A DNA stretch of 7,616 bases. Source: Bryobacterales bacterium. GTDB lineage: Bacteria; Cyanobacteriota; Vampirovibrionia; Obscuribacterales; Obscuribacteraceae. Position 1 is the stretch's first letter; the number at the start of each line of letters is the position of its first letter. Positions 253 through 5,078 of this stretch are shown here, piece after piece. The stretch spans positions 1-7,616 of the forward strand of contig CAJCHQ010000653.1 of the NCBI GenBank assembly GCA_903970295.1, written 5' to 3'. The notes under the pieces were generated by a model, which worked only from the letters and a program-made list of their open reading frames with translations, was not told where the DNA came from and searched no databases. Both the position numbers and the translations under genes were made by a program.

Positions 253-1106
253 CCCCGAAGAAGAAAGTCGATCCGCTCGAGTTGGTGGCAAAACTTGCAG
301 CCGAGGAGAGACGTTTATACGACGAATGCTTCATCGCCCCAATCGTTTCCGGCGGACGTGTCTGCGTGCGTGTCTGCGGCATCGTTTACGAGCTGTCCGT
401 TCCGGGCACTTACACGGGTTGGGCTATTCTCAAAATCAAGAACCAGCAGGAAGCCCAGGTGATTGAGCCGGCTACTCCGGCTGTGGTTTTGAAGTATCTG
501 CAGCTGTTTCCGCGCATACAAATGGTGGCACTGCAGCCATTTCAGAATCGCTGGTGGGCGATTGCTGCATCCGGCTCGGACACCAGGATCAAACTTTCAG
601 GTCCGGCTCCGATGCAACTTGTCGGCTCCTGCAGCAGATTTGATACCGTGAACTGCCGCTTCGACGGCAGTGCCTTCTGGTTTGAGTCAATTGATCGCAG
701 GCGGGACCCGCGCATCGCTAAAACCCTCAACAAAGCACTCGCTGAAGGAGTTGAACCTGCAAAGCTTCAATGCCCGGGAGCCACCCCTGAAGAACGCCTT
801 GCATACCGAATGCTATGGTTGGATGAGCACGAAGAGACTTCAGCGGGCGCTAGCGATCTCGAACGCATCAACCGAGCGCTGGCGCATGCCGGGGCCAACC
901 TGGAAGGTTTCTCGTATCAAGACGGCGACCGTGCAACGGTGCGTTTTACTGTCGACGGAACGAGCAGATCAGTGCTCCTGCAAACAAGCGACTTGAGTGT
1001 AATCAGCGCGGGAATATGTTTGAGTGGAATGGATCACCAATTCGACTTGACCAGTCTCGTAGGAGTTTGGCGTGAAGCTGCAGAAAGCGGAATCGACTAC
1101 GACTGA
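249..1106 (+). CDS. 285-residue protein with candidate E2-like C-terminal domain
   Basis: The N-terminal part (about residues 1-195) is rich in predicted strands, contains WW and several cysteines, and I do not recognise it. After a linker (about 192-203) comes a small domain: a helix (LERINRALAHAGA), a strand meander, then ISAGICLSG with Cys257, then FDLTSLVGVWREA. This last stretch resembles the E2 signature, where the catalytic cysteine sits in a G-x-I-C-L motif followed by a loop and helix. An E2-like conjugating role is therefore my inference; the domain is much shorter than a eukaryotic UBC fold. The TTG start overlaps the upstream stop (TTGA) and the 3' end overlaps the JAB gene by 35 bp, so the products are probably made together. 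If it is not an E2, it is a conserved accessory factor of the same operon. Confidence 0.8.
   Translation: MTPKKKVDPLELVAKLAAEERRLYDECFIAPIVSGGRVCVRVCGIVYELSVPGTYTGWAILKIKNQQEAQVIEPATPAVVLKYLQLFPRIQMVALQPFQNRWWAIAASGSDTRIKLSGPAPMQLVGSCSRFDTVNCRFDGSAFWFESIDRRRDPRIAKTLNKALAEGVEPAKLQCPGATPEERLAYRMLWLDEHEETSAGASDLERINRALAHAGANLEGFSYQDGDRATVRFTVDGTSRSVLLQTSDLSVISAGICLSGMDHQFDLTSLVGVWREAAESGIDYD
1061..1065 (+). promoter_or_regulatory. Shine-Dalgarno AGGAG for the JAB gene
   Basis: AGGAG lies six bases before the GTG at 1072, inside the end of the preceding gene. This fixes the JAB start at GTG rather than at a later codon and shows the 35-bp overlap is real. Confidence 0.8.
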
Positions 1107-1602
1107 GGCTTTCAGTCTGGAAACGTGCTGCATTCTCACGGGTGAGATATGCGATGGGCTTTTGCACGCGAAAATGCGCTGGCGTAAGCGCGGTTCGCGA
1201 GCGTCTGTAGAATTCAACTGGCAGCGCGTCTGGCAGCAAGAAGAAAAACGCGGAGACGTCGTCGGTTTCTACCATACACATCCACCCGGTTGCTTGGGGA
1301 TGAGCGCGCGCGACGAAAGAACAATGTGCGCCTGGGCATTCTCTTTTGGAAAGCCTTTGCTGTGCGCGATTCAAGTTATAGGGGCGCAAACTTCAACGAT
1401 CCATGGTAATACTGAGTTTGAATTTGCTGGCGATAATCAAGCAACATCAAGCGATGCAGGCGAGACAGGTGAGGCAGCCGATGCAGCCGATGCAGTTCTT
1501 CGTTCTTGGCTTGTCTATCCCGCGGGTGATATCGTTCAGTGCCATCAGACTGTTTTATTCAGAAATTCGTGGATAATTGCAGTGCTCAGCCAACAGGTGT
1601 GA
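1072..1602 (+). CDS. JAMM/JAB (Mov34/MPN-like) metalloprotease, candidate deubiquitinase-like enzyme
   Basis: Family knowledge: JAMM proteases are zinc isopeptidases that remove ubiquitin-like modifiers or trim their precursors. The motif is complete: His68-x-His70, then ten residues to Asp81, with Ser78 three before it (GFYHTHPPGCLGMSARDE). Glu25, in TGEICDGLL, is the best candidate for the catalytic glutamate by position, since JAB proteins usually carry a Glu in such an ExxGxL strand. The length (176 residues) suits a single-domain bacterial JAB. An acidic, Ala-rich, probably flexible insert (about residues 128-143) is encoded partly by a 9-bp direct repeat and precedes the last strands. 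The gene overlaps the E2-like gene and stops three bases before the E1 start. The predicted role is to reverse or proofread conjugation by the neighbouring E1/E2-like pair. Confidence 0.9.
   Translation: MKLQKAESTTTEAFSLETCCILTGEICDGLLHAKMRWRKRGSRASVEFNWQRVWQQEEKRGDVVGFYHTHPPGCLGMSARDERTMCAWAFSFGKPLLCAIQVIGAQTSTIHGNTEFEFAGDNQATSSDAGETGEAADAADAVLRSWLVYPAGDIVQCHQTVLFRNSWIIAVLSQQV
1474..1495 (+). repeat. Short in-frame direct repeat (GCAGCCGAT, about 2.4 copies)
   Basis: Two exact 9-bp units and a partial third encode the Ala-Ala-Asp run in the flexible part of the JAB protein. Being a multiple of three, it can expand or shrink by slippage without breaking the frame. Confidence 0.8.
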
Positions 1603-1605
1603 CTT

Positions 1606-2244
1606 ATGCGACTCAACCATCACGAAGTGATCTATCGCGGCAAGTCGGCAATGGAAAAACTGTCTTCTGCGGACGTTACGATATGTGGCGCCGGAGCACT
1701 GGGTTCGCACGTCGCAGTAAACCTGGCGCGCTGCGGTGTGAAGAGCATTTGTGTCATCGATCGAGATCGCGTCGAAGAGCACAACGTGAGCACGCAAATC
1801 TTTGGGCTCGACGATGTCGGTGGACAAAAGGCAGATATCTTGAGAAACGTTGTGGCACGCGATGTCGGTATTGATGTACGGTCGGTAACGCGGGAGCTGA
1901 CCGACCAAAATCTAAATAAGCTTCTTAAAGGAGCCAATCTAGTGGTCGACACTTTCGACAACTCGCGTGCGCGCCACCTGGTTTTCGACTATTGCACGCA
2001 AAATGAGATTAATTGTCTTCATGCCGGAGTAAACGACGAATACGGAGAAATCGTTTGGAATGAGAATTACCGCGTGCCTCAAGATGTGGGCGTGGATGCA
2101 TGCGATTATCCGTTAGCACGCAATTTGATTTTGCTAGTATCTGCGGTTGCGTCGGAGTGTCTGCTGCGCTATCTAATCACTGGACAGAAGCAATCTTACG
2201 CTATTACGCTAGGCGACTTGTCGATCTCTGCAGCCGAGTTCTAG
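1606..2244 (+). CDS. E1/ThiF-type adenylyltransferase (activating enzyme)
   Basis: A compact 212-residue ThiF/MoeB-fold protein. Visible motifs: the Rossmann ATP loop GAGALG (residues 28-33), the DxDxVxxxN region (Asp52, Asp54, Asn60), the GGQKA lysine (Lys75), and DTFDNSRAR with Asp118-Asn119. Family knowledge: such enzymes adenylate the C-terminal glycine of a ubiquitin-like protein and pass it on as a thioester. Two points are unusual. The Arg normally found in the N-x-x-R-Q element is Thr63 (NVSTQ), and the paired CxxC zinc cysteines of MoeB/ThiF are absent. A lone Cys166 (DACDYP) sits about where the second zinc cysteine would be and is the best candidate for a thioester cysteine. ATG lies three bases after the JAB stop with AGGTG six bases upstream. 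This is the last gene of the operon; a T-rich stretch at and after the stop has no clear hairpin. Confidence 0.92.
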   Translation: MRLNHHEVIYRGKSAMEKLSSADVTICGAGALGSHVAVNLARCGVKSICVIDRDRVEEHNVSTQIFGLDDVGGQKADILRNVVARDVGIDVRSVTRELTDQNLNKLLKGANLVVDTFDNSRARHLVFDYCTQNEINCLHAGVNDEYGEIVWNENYRVPQDVGVDACDYPLARNLILLVSAVASECLLRYLITGQKQSYAITLGDLSISAAEF

Positions 2245-2275: not shown

Positions 2276-2305
2276 TTGACAAAAAAGGCGATCTGTAACT
2301 ATGAT
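2276..2305 (+). promoter_or_regulatory. Sigma70-type promoter P1 (TTGACA - 18 bp - TATGAT)
   Basis: A perfect -35 hexamer (2276-2281) and a -10 with five of six consensus bases (TATGAT, 2300-2305) are separated by 18 bp, 31 bp after the E1 stop. Transcription would begin near 2312 and enter the structured non-coding region. No open frame with a ribosome binding site follows, so the product is likely a non-coding RNA or a long leader. Confidence 0.65.
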
Positions 2306-2311
2306 GGGAAT

Positions 2312-2515
2312 TCGCCTTCCCGAAGCTTGGCCGCATCGCGTGTATTAATCGCTTTTGCGATACAGCGTGATCAATCGTCAAGCAGGGAGGCTAATAGGAG
2401 AGCCTAAGTGGATAGTGATCCAGTAGGTACCTACAACCTAAAAAGGCTCATCCTGCTCGGAGTCCCGACGCCGTTTTCGTATAGCGGCAGAGAGGGACGA
2501 GCTGGATACCTCATG
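2312..2515 (+). ncRNA. Unidentified structured RNA segment downstream of P1
   Basis: No protein gene is visible. Possible helices by hand are: a stem-loop at 2335-2365 capped by TCGC-TTTT-GCGA; AGCAGG (2381-2386) with CCTGCT (2452-2457); AGCCT (2401-2405) with AGGCT (2444-2448), enclosing the hairpin TGGAT-AGTG-ATCCA (2409-2422) and the 12-bp palindrome GTAGGTACCTAC (2423-2434). An alternative long arm pairs ATCC-T-GCTC-GGA-GTCCC (2450-2466) with GGGAC-GAGC-T-GGAT (2494-2507). The two arrangements compete for 2450-2457, so the segment could switch folds. I recognise no known RNA family. It could be an independent RNA, a leader for the Y RNAs, or incidental structure. The transcript boundaries are guesses: the start is from P1 and the end from the last helix. 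Confidence 0.35.
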
Positions 2516-2563
2516 TACGGGCGCAACTAAGTTTGTCGTCCGGCTTTGCGCTTCTCGAAAAGT

Positions 2564-2589: not shown

Positions 2590-2618
2590 TTGACAAACCG
2601 CACTGATGGCGGTACTAT
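2590..2618 (+). promoter_or_regulatory. Sigma70-type promoter P2 (TTGACA - 17 bp - TACTAT) for the Y RNAs
   Basis: TTGACA (2590-2595) and TACTAT (2613-2618) have the optimal 17-bp spacing. The predicted start, near 2625, falls one or two bases before the 5' strand of the first Y RNA stem. That agreement was not built in, so it supports both calls. Confidence 0.7.
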
Positions 2619-2624
2619 GTTTGA

Positions 2625-2766
2625 CATGAGCTTGTGCTCAAACAGCCGGAGCTTACAATCGGCTATTAACCGGGTGGTCGCGGGTTCGAATCCCGCCAGC
2701 TCCTTTAATGGGGCTGTAGCTCAGAGGTAGAGCACCTTCTGTGCTCCAGCAACTCGCACAACTCAC
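2625..2766 (+). ncRNA. Y RNA of YrlA type with permuted tRNA-like core (copy 1)
   Basis: The ends pair as UGAG-[C2631 bulge]-UUGUGC (2627-2637) with GCACAACUCA (2756-2765), giving ten base pairs with a single bulged C, the hallmark of Ro-binding Y RNA stems. A 10 x 8 internal loop and a GGAGC/GCUCC helix (2648-2652, 2743-2747) follow. The core then reads as a tRNA in permuted order: a hairpin with loop CUAUUAA (2659-2673); a T arm GCGGG-UUCGAAU-CCCGC (2680-2696); CAGCUCC (2697-2703) paired through a 6-nt cap with GGGGCUG (2710-2716); and a D arm GCUC-AGAGGUA-GAGC (2719-2733). The D loop keeps the GG needed to dock on the T loop. Known YrlA RNAs mimic tRNA and bind Ro60; the Ro-like gene lies downstream. 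It is not a normal tRNA: the 3' half precedes the 5' half and the acceptor-like stem is closed by a loop. Confidence 0.82.
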
Positions 2767-2902
2767 CGCCTGTACCCTTACAGGAGGAGCATACAAACTG
2801 GTAATCATCCCTCGGGATGATGTGGTTCGATTCCACTCCTGCGTTGAATTACGCTCCAAAGCAACATAGTTGCACTTCGCTCCTACAACTTGTACAGACG
2901 GT
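2765..2902 (+). ncRNA. Second YrlA-type Y RNA in tandem (copy 2), degenerate D arm
   Basis: The lower stem pairs ACCG-C-CUGUAC (2765-2775) with GUACAG-A-CGGU (2892-2902): 4 bp, a C/A mismatch where copy 1 has its bulged C, then 6 bp. It repeats copy 1's layout: a 10-nt loop (2776-2785) with ACAG in the same register, GGAGC (2786-2790) with GCUCC (2879-2883), and an 8-nt loop with CAACU in the same register. The core has a perfect hairpin (2804-2821), a T arm GUGG-UUCGAUU-CCAC (2822-2836), a shortened acceptor-like stem GCGU-UGAAUU-ACGC (2841-2854), and GCAAC-AUA-GUUGC (2861-2873) in place of the D arm. The D-loop GG is lost, so the T loop/D loop contact is probably absent. It starts where copy 1 ends with no promoter of its own visible, so it is probably co-transcribed. 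AAATTTT follows the stem and could aid termination. Confidence 0.72.
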
Positions 2903-3150
2903 AAATTTTGCATCCACCGGACTCGGTAGCGCGCTGTTCGTGATAGCACGCACGCTGCTGTATACCGTGCCGGCGGATTACATAGGGAGGACTTCAGAGT
3001 GGATTTTCTAGATTGCCACGGCATACAGTGCCAGAGGCTGAAGATTGAACGCGGGCCACGGCTTTGTGCTAGTGCCCGCTTCTCCCACTGGAGGACTAGG
3101 GTAACCCGATCGCAGTCCAGCGCGGAGGAAGTATTTTGGATGGAATAAAC
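2903..3150 (+). other. Non-coding spacer with several possible hairpins
   Basis: There is no convincing gene. Possible helices are ACCG-GACT-CGGT (2916-2927); CTGTAT-A-CCGTG (2958-2969) with CACGG-C-ATACAG (3017-3028), eleven pairs with one mismatch; GCGGGC (3051-3056) with GCCCGC (3074-3079); CTCC-CACT-GGAG (3083-3093); and GGACT (3093-3097) with AGTCC (3114-3118). The second is long enough to be another Y-like stem, but its core has no T-loop motif and the mismatch is at a different place. The rest may be chance structure. I see no clear promoter for the downstream Y-like hairpin or the Ro gene here. Confidence 0.4.
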
Positions 3151-3240
3151 CGAATAGTAAGCGTCTGTACGAGTTACGAGAGCGTATTTGACCTTAACTG
3201 AAAGTTTGTAAGCTCTTGCTGTTAGAGTACAGACTATTCG
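3151..3240 (+). ncRNA. Third Y-like RNA hairpin without tRNA-like core
   Basis: CUGUAC (3165-3170) pairs with GUACAG (3227-3232), the same 6-bp stem as Y RNA copy 2. It continues through a 6-nt one-sided bulge into eight pairs, CGAAUAGU (3151-3158) with ACUAUUCG (3233-3240). Beyond an internal loop, CGAGAGC (3177-3183) pairs with GCUCUUG (3212-3218), in the position of the GGAGC/GCUCC helix of the other two. The closed core is only 28 nt and lacks T- and D-arm motifs. Fourteen outer pairs with an exact shared stem make chance unlikely. It may be a minimal Y RNA, a decayed copy, or a Ro-binding element in the Ro mRNA leader that lets the protein control its own expression. Confidence 0.55.
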
Positions 3241-3362: not shown

Positions 3363-3368
3363 ATGCAT

Positions 3369-3372
3369 GAGG
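3369..3372 (+). promoter_or_regulatory. Shine-Dalgarno GAGG selecting the third in-frame ATG of the Ro-like gene
   Basis: In-frame ATGs occur at 3363, 3375 and 3381. GAGG is inside the first reading, two bases from the second, and eight bases from the third, so 3381 is the best start. Confidence 0.6.
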
Positions 3373-3380
3373 CAATGAAA

Positions 3381-5078
3381 ATGACAGACTTCTGGACAAA
3401 CTTTCTCAATGGCATCCTGCAATCACCTGCGGGGGCGGGCCGCACGCAGCCAGCAACTACCTCCCAACCGACTCCTCTCGGTCGTACCGCAGCGGCCTTC
3501 CACAGAAGGCGGCAGCGAGCTGCCAGCAGTAGTCAGAGGGAGTCAGACCTCAGCCTGTTCGAAGATCTCATCCGGCGAAATGCCAAGGCCGGTGAGCAGG
3601 ACTTCCGTCTGGCCATTTTAAACGCGCTGCTTCGTACTCCACATCGCGAAGTAGAGCCTTACATCGTCTTATTTCGCTTCGTCTATGATCGCGATCCATT
3701 GTTCTTCGGGCAATTGGCGTTCTGGTATTTCGACAATGGTTCTGTGCACGATTTGAAGCAGTTGTTCATCGCTTTTCTGGCCACGTCCAAGTTCTCGGAC
3801 GAGCATCGCGACGCCGGACTGGCATTGCTGAAGAAACTGCCGCCTTATCAGGTCGAACGAGTGCTGACGATAGTGAAGGGACATCGTCAAGGCGAAAAGT
3901 GCATCGAAGGAATTTCGGCATCAGTTCCACGTTCCCTTCGCACTGCCATTGAGCAATATTTGCGTGAGCGCGAAAGAAATACCGACCAGTTCGACAGCGT
4001 AGCCTTGCACGCGCGCAAGTCGTTGAAGTCCCTCTATGCCTCTTTGCGAATCAAGCCCGGCGACTATGCTCAGCGGGTTTTGTTTGACAACGCACCGCCT
4101 GCCGGCAGTCGTTTGCACGTGCTGAAGGAGCTGGCAAAACAAACCGACGCTGCCAGTCAAGCCAAGCTGATAATTGAAAACCGTATTCCTTATAGGGTAG
4201 CTATTTCATCGATCAAGAAGCTTACGCCCAGCCTTCTGGTCGCGCTCGTGAATGCGATGACACCACAAGAGGTGATAAACAATCTCTCGAGCTTGAAGAA
4301 GCGTGGTGCCATGGACAATGCCGATTTGCGCCAGCTGATTGAGAACAAACTGGAGGAAGCAAAGACCGACAAGCGCGTTTCAGCCCTGAAAAGCCGCGAG
4401 GCCATCAAAGTTGCAGGGCTGGATGAACAGCTGACAAAAATGGTTGAAGCTGTCGGAGACAAGCAAATCAAATCAAAAGCACGCATAAAACGACCCACCG
4501 CTTTGCACATTGATAAAAGCGGATCGATGCAGGTCGCCATCGAAGTAGGCAAACAGATCGCTGCCATTAGCGCGCCTTGTTGCGAGGCAGGGCTGTTTGT
4601 CTATGCATTTGACACTCTCGCCTATCCTATCAATGCAAAAGGACCAGAGCTGTCTGATTGGGAAAAGGCATTCAAGGGTATTCAGGCAGGTGGTGGCACT
4701 TCCTGCGGAGTAGCTCTCGAAATGATGCGCCGTAAGGGCGAACGTGTCGAGCAGATAGTGATGGTCACTGACCAAGATGAAAACACGCAGCCGTTGCTGT
4801 TGGCTACCCTCCAGCAATACAGCTCAGAAATGGGCGTGACCCCGGATGTTCTGCTTGTGAATGTCGGTTCATACAGCAATAAGCTGGAAACTCAACTCAC
4901 GCACTCGGGATTCACCTGCGACACATTCACTTTCACTGGAGACTATTACAGCTTGCCCAGCCTGCTGCCAATGATTGCAGGCGGCACGCGGCTTGAGCTG
5001 CTCATGTCCATCATGAGCCACCCGATGCCCGCGCGTTCGAAGAAGCAGCCCGCGGCCCCGCTTGGGGTGCGAGCCTGA
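3381..5078 (+). CDS. Ro60-like RNA-binding protein (TROVE-like repeats + VWA domain)
   Basis: A protein of 565 residues from the chosen ATG. The first 60 or so are Pro/Ser/Arg-rich and probably flexible. Next are about 300 residues of helical repeats; the stretch VNAMTPQEVINNLSSLKKRG matches the part of the Ro60 TROVE ring that ends in a leucine-rich NL-x-K helix. The C-terminal VWA domain keeps a full metal site: Asp378-x-Ser380-x-Ser382 (DKSGS), Thr440 in GGGTSC, and Asp464 in VTDQDEN, equivalent to the TDNE of Ro60. Family knowledge: Ro60 (Rsr in bacteria) is a ring that holds misfolded RNA ends in its cavity and Y RNA on its outer surface, often joined to a nuclease. Sequence outside these motifs is quite divergent, so TROVE assignment rests on motif order plus the Y RNAs just upstream. 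No nuclease or RtcB/RtcA ligase gene is in the window. Confidence 0.82.
   Translation: MTDFWTNFLNGILQSPAGAGRTQPATTSQPTPLGRTAAAFHRRRQRAASSSQRESDLSLFEDLIRRNAKAGEQDFRLAILNALLRTPHREVEPYIVLFRFVYDRDPLFFGQLAFWYFDNGSVHDLKQLFIAFLATSKFSDEHRDAGLALLKKLPPYQVERVLTIVKGHRQGEKCIEGISASVPRSLRTAIEQYLRERERNTDQFDSVALHARKSLKSLYASLRIKPGDYAQRVLFDNAPPAGSRLHVLKELAKQTDAASQAKLIIENRIPYRVAISSIKKLTPSLLVALVNAMTPQEVINNLSSLKKRGAMDNADLRQLIENKLEEAKTDKRVSALKSREAIKVAGLDEQLTKMVEAVGDKQIKSKARIKRPTALHIDKSGSMQVAIEVGKQIAAISAPCCEAGLFVYAFDTLAYPINAKGPELSDWEKAFKGIQAGGGTSCGVALEMMRRKGERVEQIVMVTDQDENTQPLLLATLQQYSSEMGVTPDVLLVNVGSYSNKLETQLTHSGFTCDTFTFTGDYYSLPSLLPMIAGGTRLELLMSIMSHPMPARSKKQPAAPLGVRA

Follow-up and report, generated by a model that had tools for sequence, protein, structure and literature searches.

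A gene for a Ro60-type protein in this Obscuribacterales genome is preceded by two Y RNA-like elements in direct succession, which raises the question of what the second one is and what it might bind. The window analysed here is the whole stretch of 7,616 nucleotides (contig CAJCHQ010000653.1). A sequence-only reading of it had proposed a tandem second Y RNA at 2765..2902 (+ strand; copy 2) whose base pairs covary with those of a first (copy 1, 2627..2765, + strand), and this proposal is supported by the fold, by compensatory changes in the stems and by relatives elsewhere. Copy 2 is a genuine second Y RNA directly behind copy 1.

Both copies consist of 4 bp, a C, 6 bp, a 10 x 8 internal loop and a GGAGC/GCUCC stem, as can be read from the letters. 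In copy 1, UGAG (2627-2630) pairs with CUCA (2762-2765), C2631 is bulged, UUGUGC (2632-2637) pairs with GCACAA (2756-2761), the internal loop sets UCAAACAGCC (2638-2647) opposite AGCAACUC (2748-2755), and the inner stem is formed by GGAGC (2648-2652) and GCUCC (2743-2747). The corresponding elements of copy 2 are ACCG (2765-2768) with CGGU (2899-2902), C2769 facing A2898, CUGUAC (2770-2775) with GUACAG (2892-2897), the loop CCUUACAGGA (2776-2785) opposite UACAACUU (2884-2891), and GGAGC (2786-2790) with GCUCC (2879-2883). ACAG and CAACU stand in identical register in the two copies, and the 6-bp stem differs by the compensation described earlier, U-A to C-G and G-C to A-U; the outer four base pairs differ too and are still paired. 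The copy 2 core thus runs on the + strand from 2770..2790 (CUGUAC, the ACAG-bearing loop, GGAGC) to 2879..2897 (GCUCC, the CAACU-bearing loop, GUACAG), the two halves pairing with each other. The folding energy of copy 2 lies 4.2 sd below that of shuffles for 2765-2902 and 4.9 sd below for 2750-2910, and that of copy 1 (2620-2770) 2.8 sd below. Copy 2 has the long stem pairing the ends and the conserved internal loop of bacterial Y RNAs, and its gene adjoins that of a Ro60-type protein, as at many related loci.

Copy 1 is a YrlA-type Y RNA, a tRNA mimic entered at the anticodon loop. It matches the Rfam YrlA family RF02553 at 42.3 bits, under the gathering score of 69, and tmRNA_permuted weakly (26.2 bits, gathering score 47). 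ARAGORN accepts rotated copy 1 as a tRNA: 163 rotations put the junction at the anticodon loop, and 12 put it in the D region. Copy 1 has the YrlA order of arms, that of a tRNA opened at the anticodon loop, whereas copy 2 does not. In a comparison with phage records, the ten places listed of 130 matching records covered just the tRNA-like part of copy 1. A 123-residue reading frame antisense to both Y RNAs (2653-3024, - strand) contains GAGGIRTRD and is presumably the usual spurious product of tRNA-like DNA read backwards.

Upstream of copy 1 lies a promoter-like TTGACA-17-TACTAT (2590..2618, + strand). The scan returned 2 such sites in the window where 1.0 is expected by chance, so the count itself is no evidence for a promoter, and it found no site between copy 1 and copy 2. 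The two copies are probably made in one transcript. A2765 belongs to the outer helices of both, so an uncut transcript cannot have both outer helices complete simultaneously. Further upstream, at 2276-2545 (+ strand), a promoter-like site precedes a stretch whose folding energy is 3.2 sd under that of shuffles; Rfam gives no match there at E up to 1. A third Y RNA, minimal and without a module, was recovered by the scans at 3164..3233 on the - strand, opposite to the Ro60 gene. Six related loci (L001-L006) also have a minimal Y RNA; there it stands immediately ahead of Ro60 and on the same strand.

The module of copy 2 opens with GGUA (2800..2803, + strand), which comparison with relatives suggests is a D-loop remnant. 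A hairpin of 7 bp with a CUCG loop (2804..2821, + strand) follows at the position of an anticodon arm, and behind it come a T-arm-like hairpin, GUGG-UUCGAUU-CCAC (2822..2836, + strand), and an acceptor-like hairpin, GCGU-UGAAUU-ACGC (2841..2854, + strand), each with a stem of 4 bp and 4 nt separating them. The last element, GCAAC-AUA-GUUGC (2861..2873, + strand), is a short hairpin and not a D arm; no D arm was found in the sequence or the fold. As to the claim that copy 2 had lost the D-loop GG, the hairpin at 2861-2873 does lack a GG, but one stands at 2800-2801, close to the start of the module. Relatives suggest a class in which the Y stem enters the D loop, and the missing part is accordingly better read as the D stem than as the GG. 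Searches of copy 2 and of two flanking stretches (2300-2560 and 2905-3130) for 23S- or 16S-like sequence gave nothing at E up to 0.05.

An ordered pair of the same kind was found in a second genome of the order Obscuribacterales (G030, contig C466, locus L172). It follows homologs of the 83-residue, 285-residue and ThiF proteins of the window; a JAB homolog was sought in this stretch and none was found. G030 gave no Ro60 match, and the contig terminates just behind the pair. Over 134 nt, its first RNA shares 80% identity with copy 1; its second is of the copy 2 kind. RNAalifold predicts 24 pairs for copy 2 and this homolog, of which 6 are changed on both sides with pairing kept; the T arm and the acceptor-like hairpin contribute two each, the outer stem and stem B one each. 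Both RNAs have a hairpin preceding the T arm, with wholly different sequences, and the hairpin at 2861-2873 is missing from the homolog. The two RNAs of G030 are spaced by about 260 nt, with a promoter-like site ahead of each, in a stretch with 6 such sites where 1.2 are expected. In the core common to all four RNAs, covariation is modest: three pairs show changes on both sides, a number reached by 23 of 500 shuffles.

This homolog bears on the alternative that copy 2 arose as a tandem duplicate of copy 1 and is decaying, its tRNA mimicry gone. Such decay would fit an RNA that lies directly behind copy 1 with no promoter-like site of its own, that has no Rfam match (RF02553 included) at E up to 1 and that ARAGORN rejects as a tRNA in every rotation. 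However, the G030 RNA keeps the parts in identical order, with compensatory changes in the T arm and the acceptor-like hairpin, and has a promoter-like site of its own; moreover, the module of copy 2 has a complete hairpin before the T arm, and copy 1 has none. We consider decay unlikely, and copy 2 is probably more than a decayed copy 1.

The candidate partner of both RNAs is encoded at 3363..5078 (+ strand). Pfam gives this protein no TROVE match, and vWA_Ro60 only 16.2 bits (E 0.01), under the cut-off of 27.7. A profile of 48 homologs, however, finds TROVE/Ro60 structures: 9kop and 9l5y at 2e-5, 9nen at 5.3e-4, 1yvp at 0.025 and Rsr 2nvo at 0.49. An AlphaFold model (mean pLDDT 84.2, pTM 0.72) shows a helical ring with a vWA domain, the fold of Ro60, and matches 9kop (2.1e-11), Rsr 2nvo (2.4e-10) and human Ro60 9nen (3.0e-10), with TM-scores of 0.55-0.60 over the model. 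On this predicted fold we treat the protein as a divergent Ro60-type protein and as the likely partner of the Y RNAs.

Upstream of the Y RNAs are genes for a 285-residue protein (249-1106), a Prok-JAB protein (1072..1602, + strand; PF14464, 6.6e-7) and a ThiF-family protein (1606..2244, + strand; PF00899, 2e-32), and at 1-252 lies a partial reading frame for a small 83-residue protein ending in FG. The 285- and 83-residue proteins have no match in Pfam or NCBIfam; their assignment as an E2 and a ubiquitin-like protein would be a guess from position, and we set it aside. A survey of 21 Obscuribacterales stretches, some of them overlapping, placed homologs of the 285-residue and ThiF proteins in the same stretch as Ro60 at L004, L108, L109, L111, L112, L114 and L177. 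JAB homologs occurred at L004 and L108 only, and Ro60 stood without the other homologs at L110, L113, L116, L118 and L119.

Chen et al. (2014) reportedly put the number of bacterial and phage species with likely Y RNAs at over 250. We scanned the window and 76 Ro60 loci with a descriptor of the core, using reversed sequences as a control. At a score of at least 15 there were 106 real hits and no reversed ones, while a score of 14 was reached by no real and three reversed sequences; copy 2 scored 19.0, and one of the 106 hits (L038, minus strand, 4136) looks spurious. Once more genomes were added, the set came to 120 distinct RNAs, in which stem pairs covary widely and loops are strongly biased, although the search itself demands pairing, a 5'-side AC and a 3'-side RAYU, so that these features are not independent proof. 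The outer 4-bp extension was not a selection criterion. It is a weak general feature of the Y RNAs: it is fully paired in 35 of the 120, and mean pairing is 2.80, only modestly above the 2.35 of shuffled partners (best of 200 shuffles, 2.52).

A covariance model, R1, was then built from the pair of the window and the pair of G030. It scores copy 2, one of its four training sequences, at 123 bits and the minimal third Y RNA at 55.1 bits. R1 was searched in 57 of the 77 Ro60 loci, the window included, and elsewhere, and returned 164 matches at E up to 0.1 from 71 sources, four matches being training sequences and some sources overlapping. At E up to 0.01, 50 of the 57 Ro60 loci contain at least one match, 43 two or more and 22 three or more; no Y RNA was found at this threshold in the other seven (L045, L050, L054, L055, L060, L071 and L073). 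Neighbouring starts lie within 260 nt of each other in 31 cases, in 20 loci. Among 53 Obscuribacterales genomes 14 have R1 matches, comprising ten of the 11 with a strong Ro60 match (the exception is G007) and four of the remaining 42 (G029, G030, G047 and G053). Some Y RNAs lie on other contigs than the Ro60 found; one contig of G001 (C247), for example, has five matches. The search of other genomes near Ro60-type genes that had been proposed as a check, seeded with the copies and their homologous pair, was thus successful, and the shared pattern is present at related loci.

Nine of 17 viral contigs bearing such a Ro60 also matched at E up to 0.01, two of the nine being the same sequence. The relatives of both copies form mixed arrays beside a Ro60-type protein in many bacteria and some phages. 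On one viral contig (L194, 3884-4534), four consecutive Y RNAs adjoin the Ro60-type gene and their module orders differ. Ro60 has been noted in jumbo phages as well (PMC7824862).

For 181 distinct matches (E up to 0.01) we surveyed the modules by running ARAGORN, also on rotated modules. A tRNA in normal order was recognised in 32. In 46 a tRNA appeared only after rotation, with the junction mainly at the anticodon loop, and in 11 only after rotation with the junction in the D region. Five of these 11 are clear D-region openings (L038 934, L057 5757, L041 5765, L065 817 and L227 5560), and the other six are ambiguous or near-normal. The junction lay towards the variable loop or the T side in eight modules (for example L230 660, L183 4660 and L182 4986) and at the end of the tRNA in one. 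ARAGORN did not recognise 43 modules, that of copy 2 included; six of at least 140 nt were left out of rotation, and 34 RNAs are minimal, with under 50 nt and no module. ARAGORN recognised no tRNA in 109 shuffled modules. An earlier set of 106 modules contained 39 that were normal-order tRNAs without rotation, against 0 of 2120 shuffles.

The normal-order modules vary in their anticodons: 38 of them (for example L011 3445-3563 and 5153-5274) carry 16 different triplets, and 37 of the 38 keep U33, a count to be read with ARAGORN's rules in mind, which favour usual loops. The program calls the modules of L011 and L015 free tRNA genes. This is a warning for annotation, in which normal-order modules within Y RNAs are reported as free tRNA genes, some apparently amber-reading. 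In two normal-order modules (L020 5468-5619 and L021 5125-5276) the T loop is extended by an insert of roughly 30 nt. The Y RNAs starting at L014 5812, L017 5785, L026 5787 and L065 5783 share a module that is not a tRNA for ARAGORN.

For copy 2, we collected 15 RNAs with its order of hairpin, T arm and acceptor-like hairpin. A GG at module nt 7-18 occurs in 14 of these 15; the other modules have it in 28 of 132 cases and the minimal RNAs in 8 of 34, a contrast inflated by a selection made partly by eye. ARAGORN recognises five of the 15 as tRNAs after rotation, with a D-region junction; one member of the class, from L007, has a T stem of 3 bp and folds only 1.5 sd below shuffles. Copy 2 has the order GG, hairpin, T arm, acceptor-like hairpin, and ARAGORN confirms the opening in the five better-preserved relatives only. 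From this order, the GG and the five D-region relatives we infer that copy 2 is a D-loop-entered mimic that lacks the D stem, a reading that comes by way of the relatives. Against it stand the short stems of copy 2 and its rejection by ARAGORN in all rotations. Copy 1 and copy 2 seem to be tRNA look-alikes opened at different places.

The module of copy 2 might instead have ceased to be a tRNA mimic and now tether or gate an enzyme that degrades RNA, for instance PNPase, in the manner published for the Deinococcus Y RNA. Such functions, the gating and tethering of Ro60 (Rsr) and PNPase, have been described for bacterial Y RNAs (PMC4726728 and PMC8394870), and the 34 minimal RNAs of the survey do without any module. 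We nevertheless regard this as quite improbable for copy 2, which retains a T-arm-like hairpin with UUCGAUU that is compensated in its homolog. That 2765-2902 is a cis-acting leader of the Ro60 mRNA and not a separate RNA is very unlikely indeed: copy 2 does lie upstream of the Ro60 gene on the same strand, but it ends 461 nt ahead of the start codon used and is closed by an end stem of its own, and its relatives occur kilobases off or on contigs where Ro60 was not found.

Under the D-loop-entered reading, the lower stem and conserved internal loop of copy 2 would most likely bind the Ro60-type ring protein encoded downstream. Its upper part would mimic a tRNA in part: the Y stem would enter through the D loop and be followed by the D-loop GG, an anticodon-arm-like hairpin, the T arm and a closed acceptor-like hairpin, the D stem having been lost. 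Entry at the anticodon loop would leave the elbow and the acceptor end free in copy 1, and copy 2 would leave free the anticodon-side hairpin and the T arm; since the free parts differ, tRNA-handling enzymes could meet different faces of a tRNA on Ro60. The earlier suggestion that copy 2 has diverged to bind a partner different from that of copy 1 is a plausible hypothesis. Taken as a whole, we think it reasonably likely that copy 2 is a Ro60-bound second Y RNA, co-transcribed with copy 1 and carrying a partial tRNA mimic entered at the D loop.

Some modules elsewhere resemble rRNA. Five Y RNAs downstream of Ro60 (L027 7462-7665, L029 8384-8586, L037 7462-7664, L016 8594-8797 and L066 2953-3155) carry modules 72-80% identical to E. 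coli 23S 1035-1113, and AGTACGAGAGGA, which we take to be the sarcin-ricin loop, can be seen by eye in all five. Three others (L008 3868-4051, L015 3841-4020 and L031 3722-3902) match E. coli 23S 1909/1916-1941 over 26-33 nt. Five rRNA-like loci were compared with the Rfam LSU family: the L027 module scored 54.5 bits, above the gathering score of 50, and L008, L015, L016 and L031 had no match at E up to 0.1. Matches to the L027 module occur in 5375 of 5426 E. coli genomes, the best with 79.7% identity over 79 nt, and the three matches listed sit under annotated 23S genes. The piece cut out at L027 7458-7607 folds no better than shuffles (z 0.84). Across loci, the Y RNAs carry no module, normal-order tRNAs, tRNAs opened at the anticodon, D or variable loop, or 23S-like pieces.

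Among the closest known systems, Salmonella YrlA (RF02553, PDB 6CU1) shares the long end stem, the internal loop, the tRNA-like part and the adjoining Ro60 (Rsr) gene. According to PMC11472068, its arms stand in circularly permuted order and 6CU1 is a circularly permuted tRNA. PMC4726728 and PMC8394870 describe the modification of YrlA, a tRNA mimic, by DusA and TruB, and the second of these papers gives YrlA D, T and acceptor arms, whereas copy 2 is without a D arm and has a hairpin preceding the T arm. The Salmonella rsr-yrlBA-rtcBA operon, with two Y RNAs (PMC7790460), resembles the window in having more than one Y RNA beside a Ro60-type gene. Here, in contrast, no rtc gene was seen in the window, the neighbours encode JAB and ThiF proteins, and one array holds Y RNA modules of differing kinds. 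The Y RNA of Deinococcus radiodurans (RYPER) also sits on a Ro60-type ring protein (PMC4726728), although the protein of the window is distant from Deinococcus Rsr 2nvo by profile and closer by fold (the E values given above). Permuted tmRNA and permuted tRNA genes share a tRNA fold with displaced ends, but here the ends are sealed in the Y stem and the opening site varies within one array. A literature search, with most subscription journals outside its reach, returned no title on other tRNA openings or rRNA modules in Y RNAs, and their novelty is for that reason provisional.

As a more speculative step, the Ro60-type proteins of cyanobacteria, Obscuribacterales, other bacteria and phages may display a library of Y RNAs that mimic the translation machinery, with variously entered tRNAs of changing anticodons and pieces of 23S rRNA (about E. 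coli 1035-1113 and 1909-1941). These would act as decoys or sensors for RNA-targeting attackers, with copy 2 as a D-loop-entered member. We hold this to be possible, if doubtful. The decoy idea would extend a suggestion made in PMC7790460, that the tRNA-like part of YrlA could competitively inhibit an anticodon nuclease; its authors did not find cleavage of YrlA. In the published tRNA mimicry of a bacterial Y RNA (6CU1), the tRNA is opened at a single site. Should neighbours within an array enter it at different loops, or have 23S-like pieces instead, then the module would select the partner and Ro60 would be the common holder, a view that, if true, opens the purpose of bacterial Y RNAs to direct testing.
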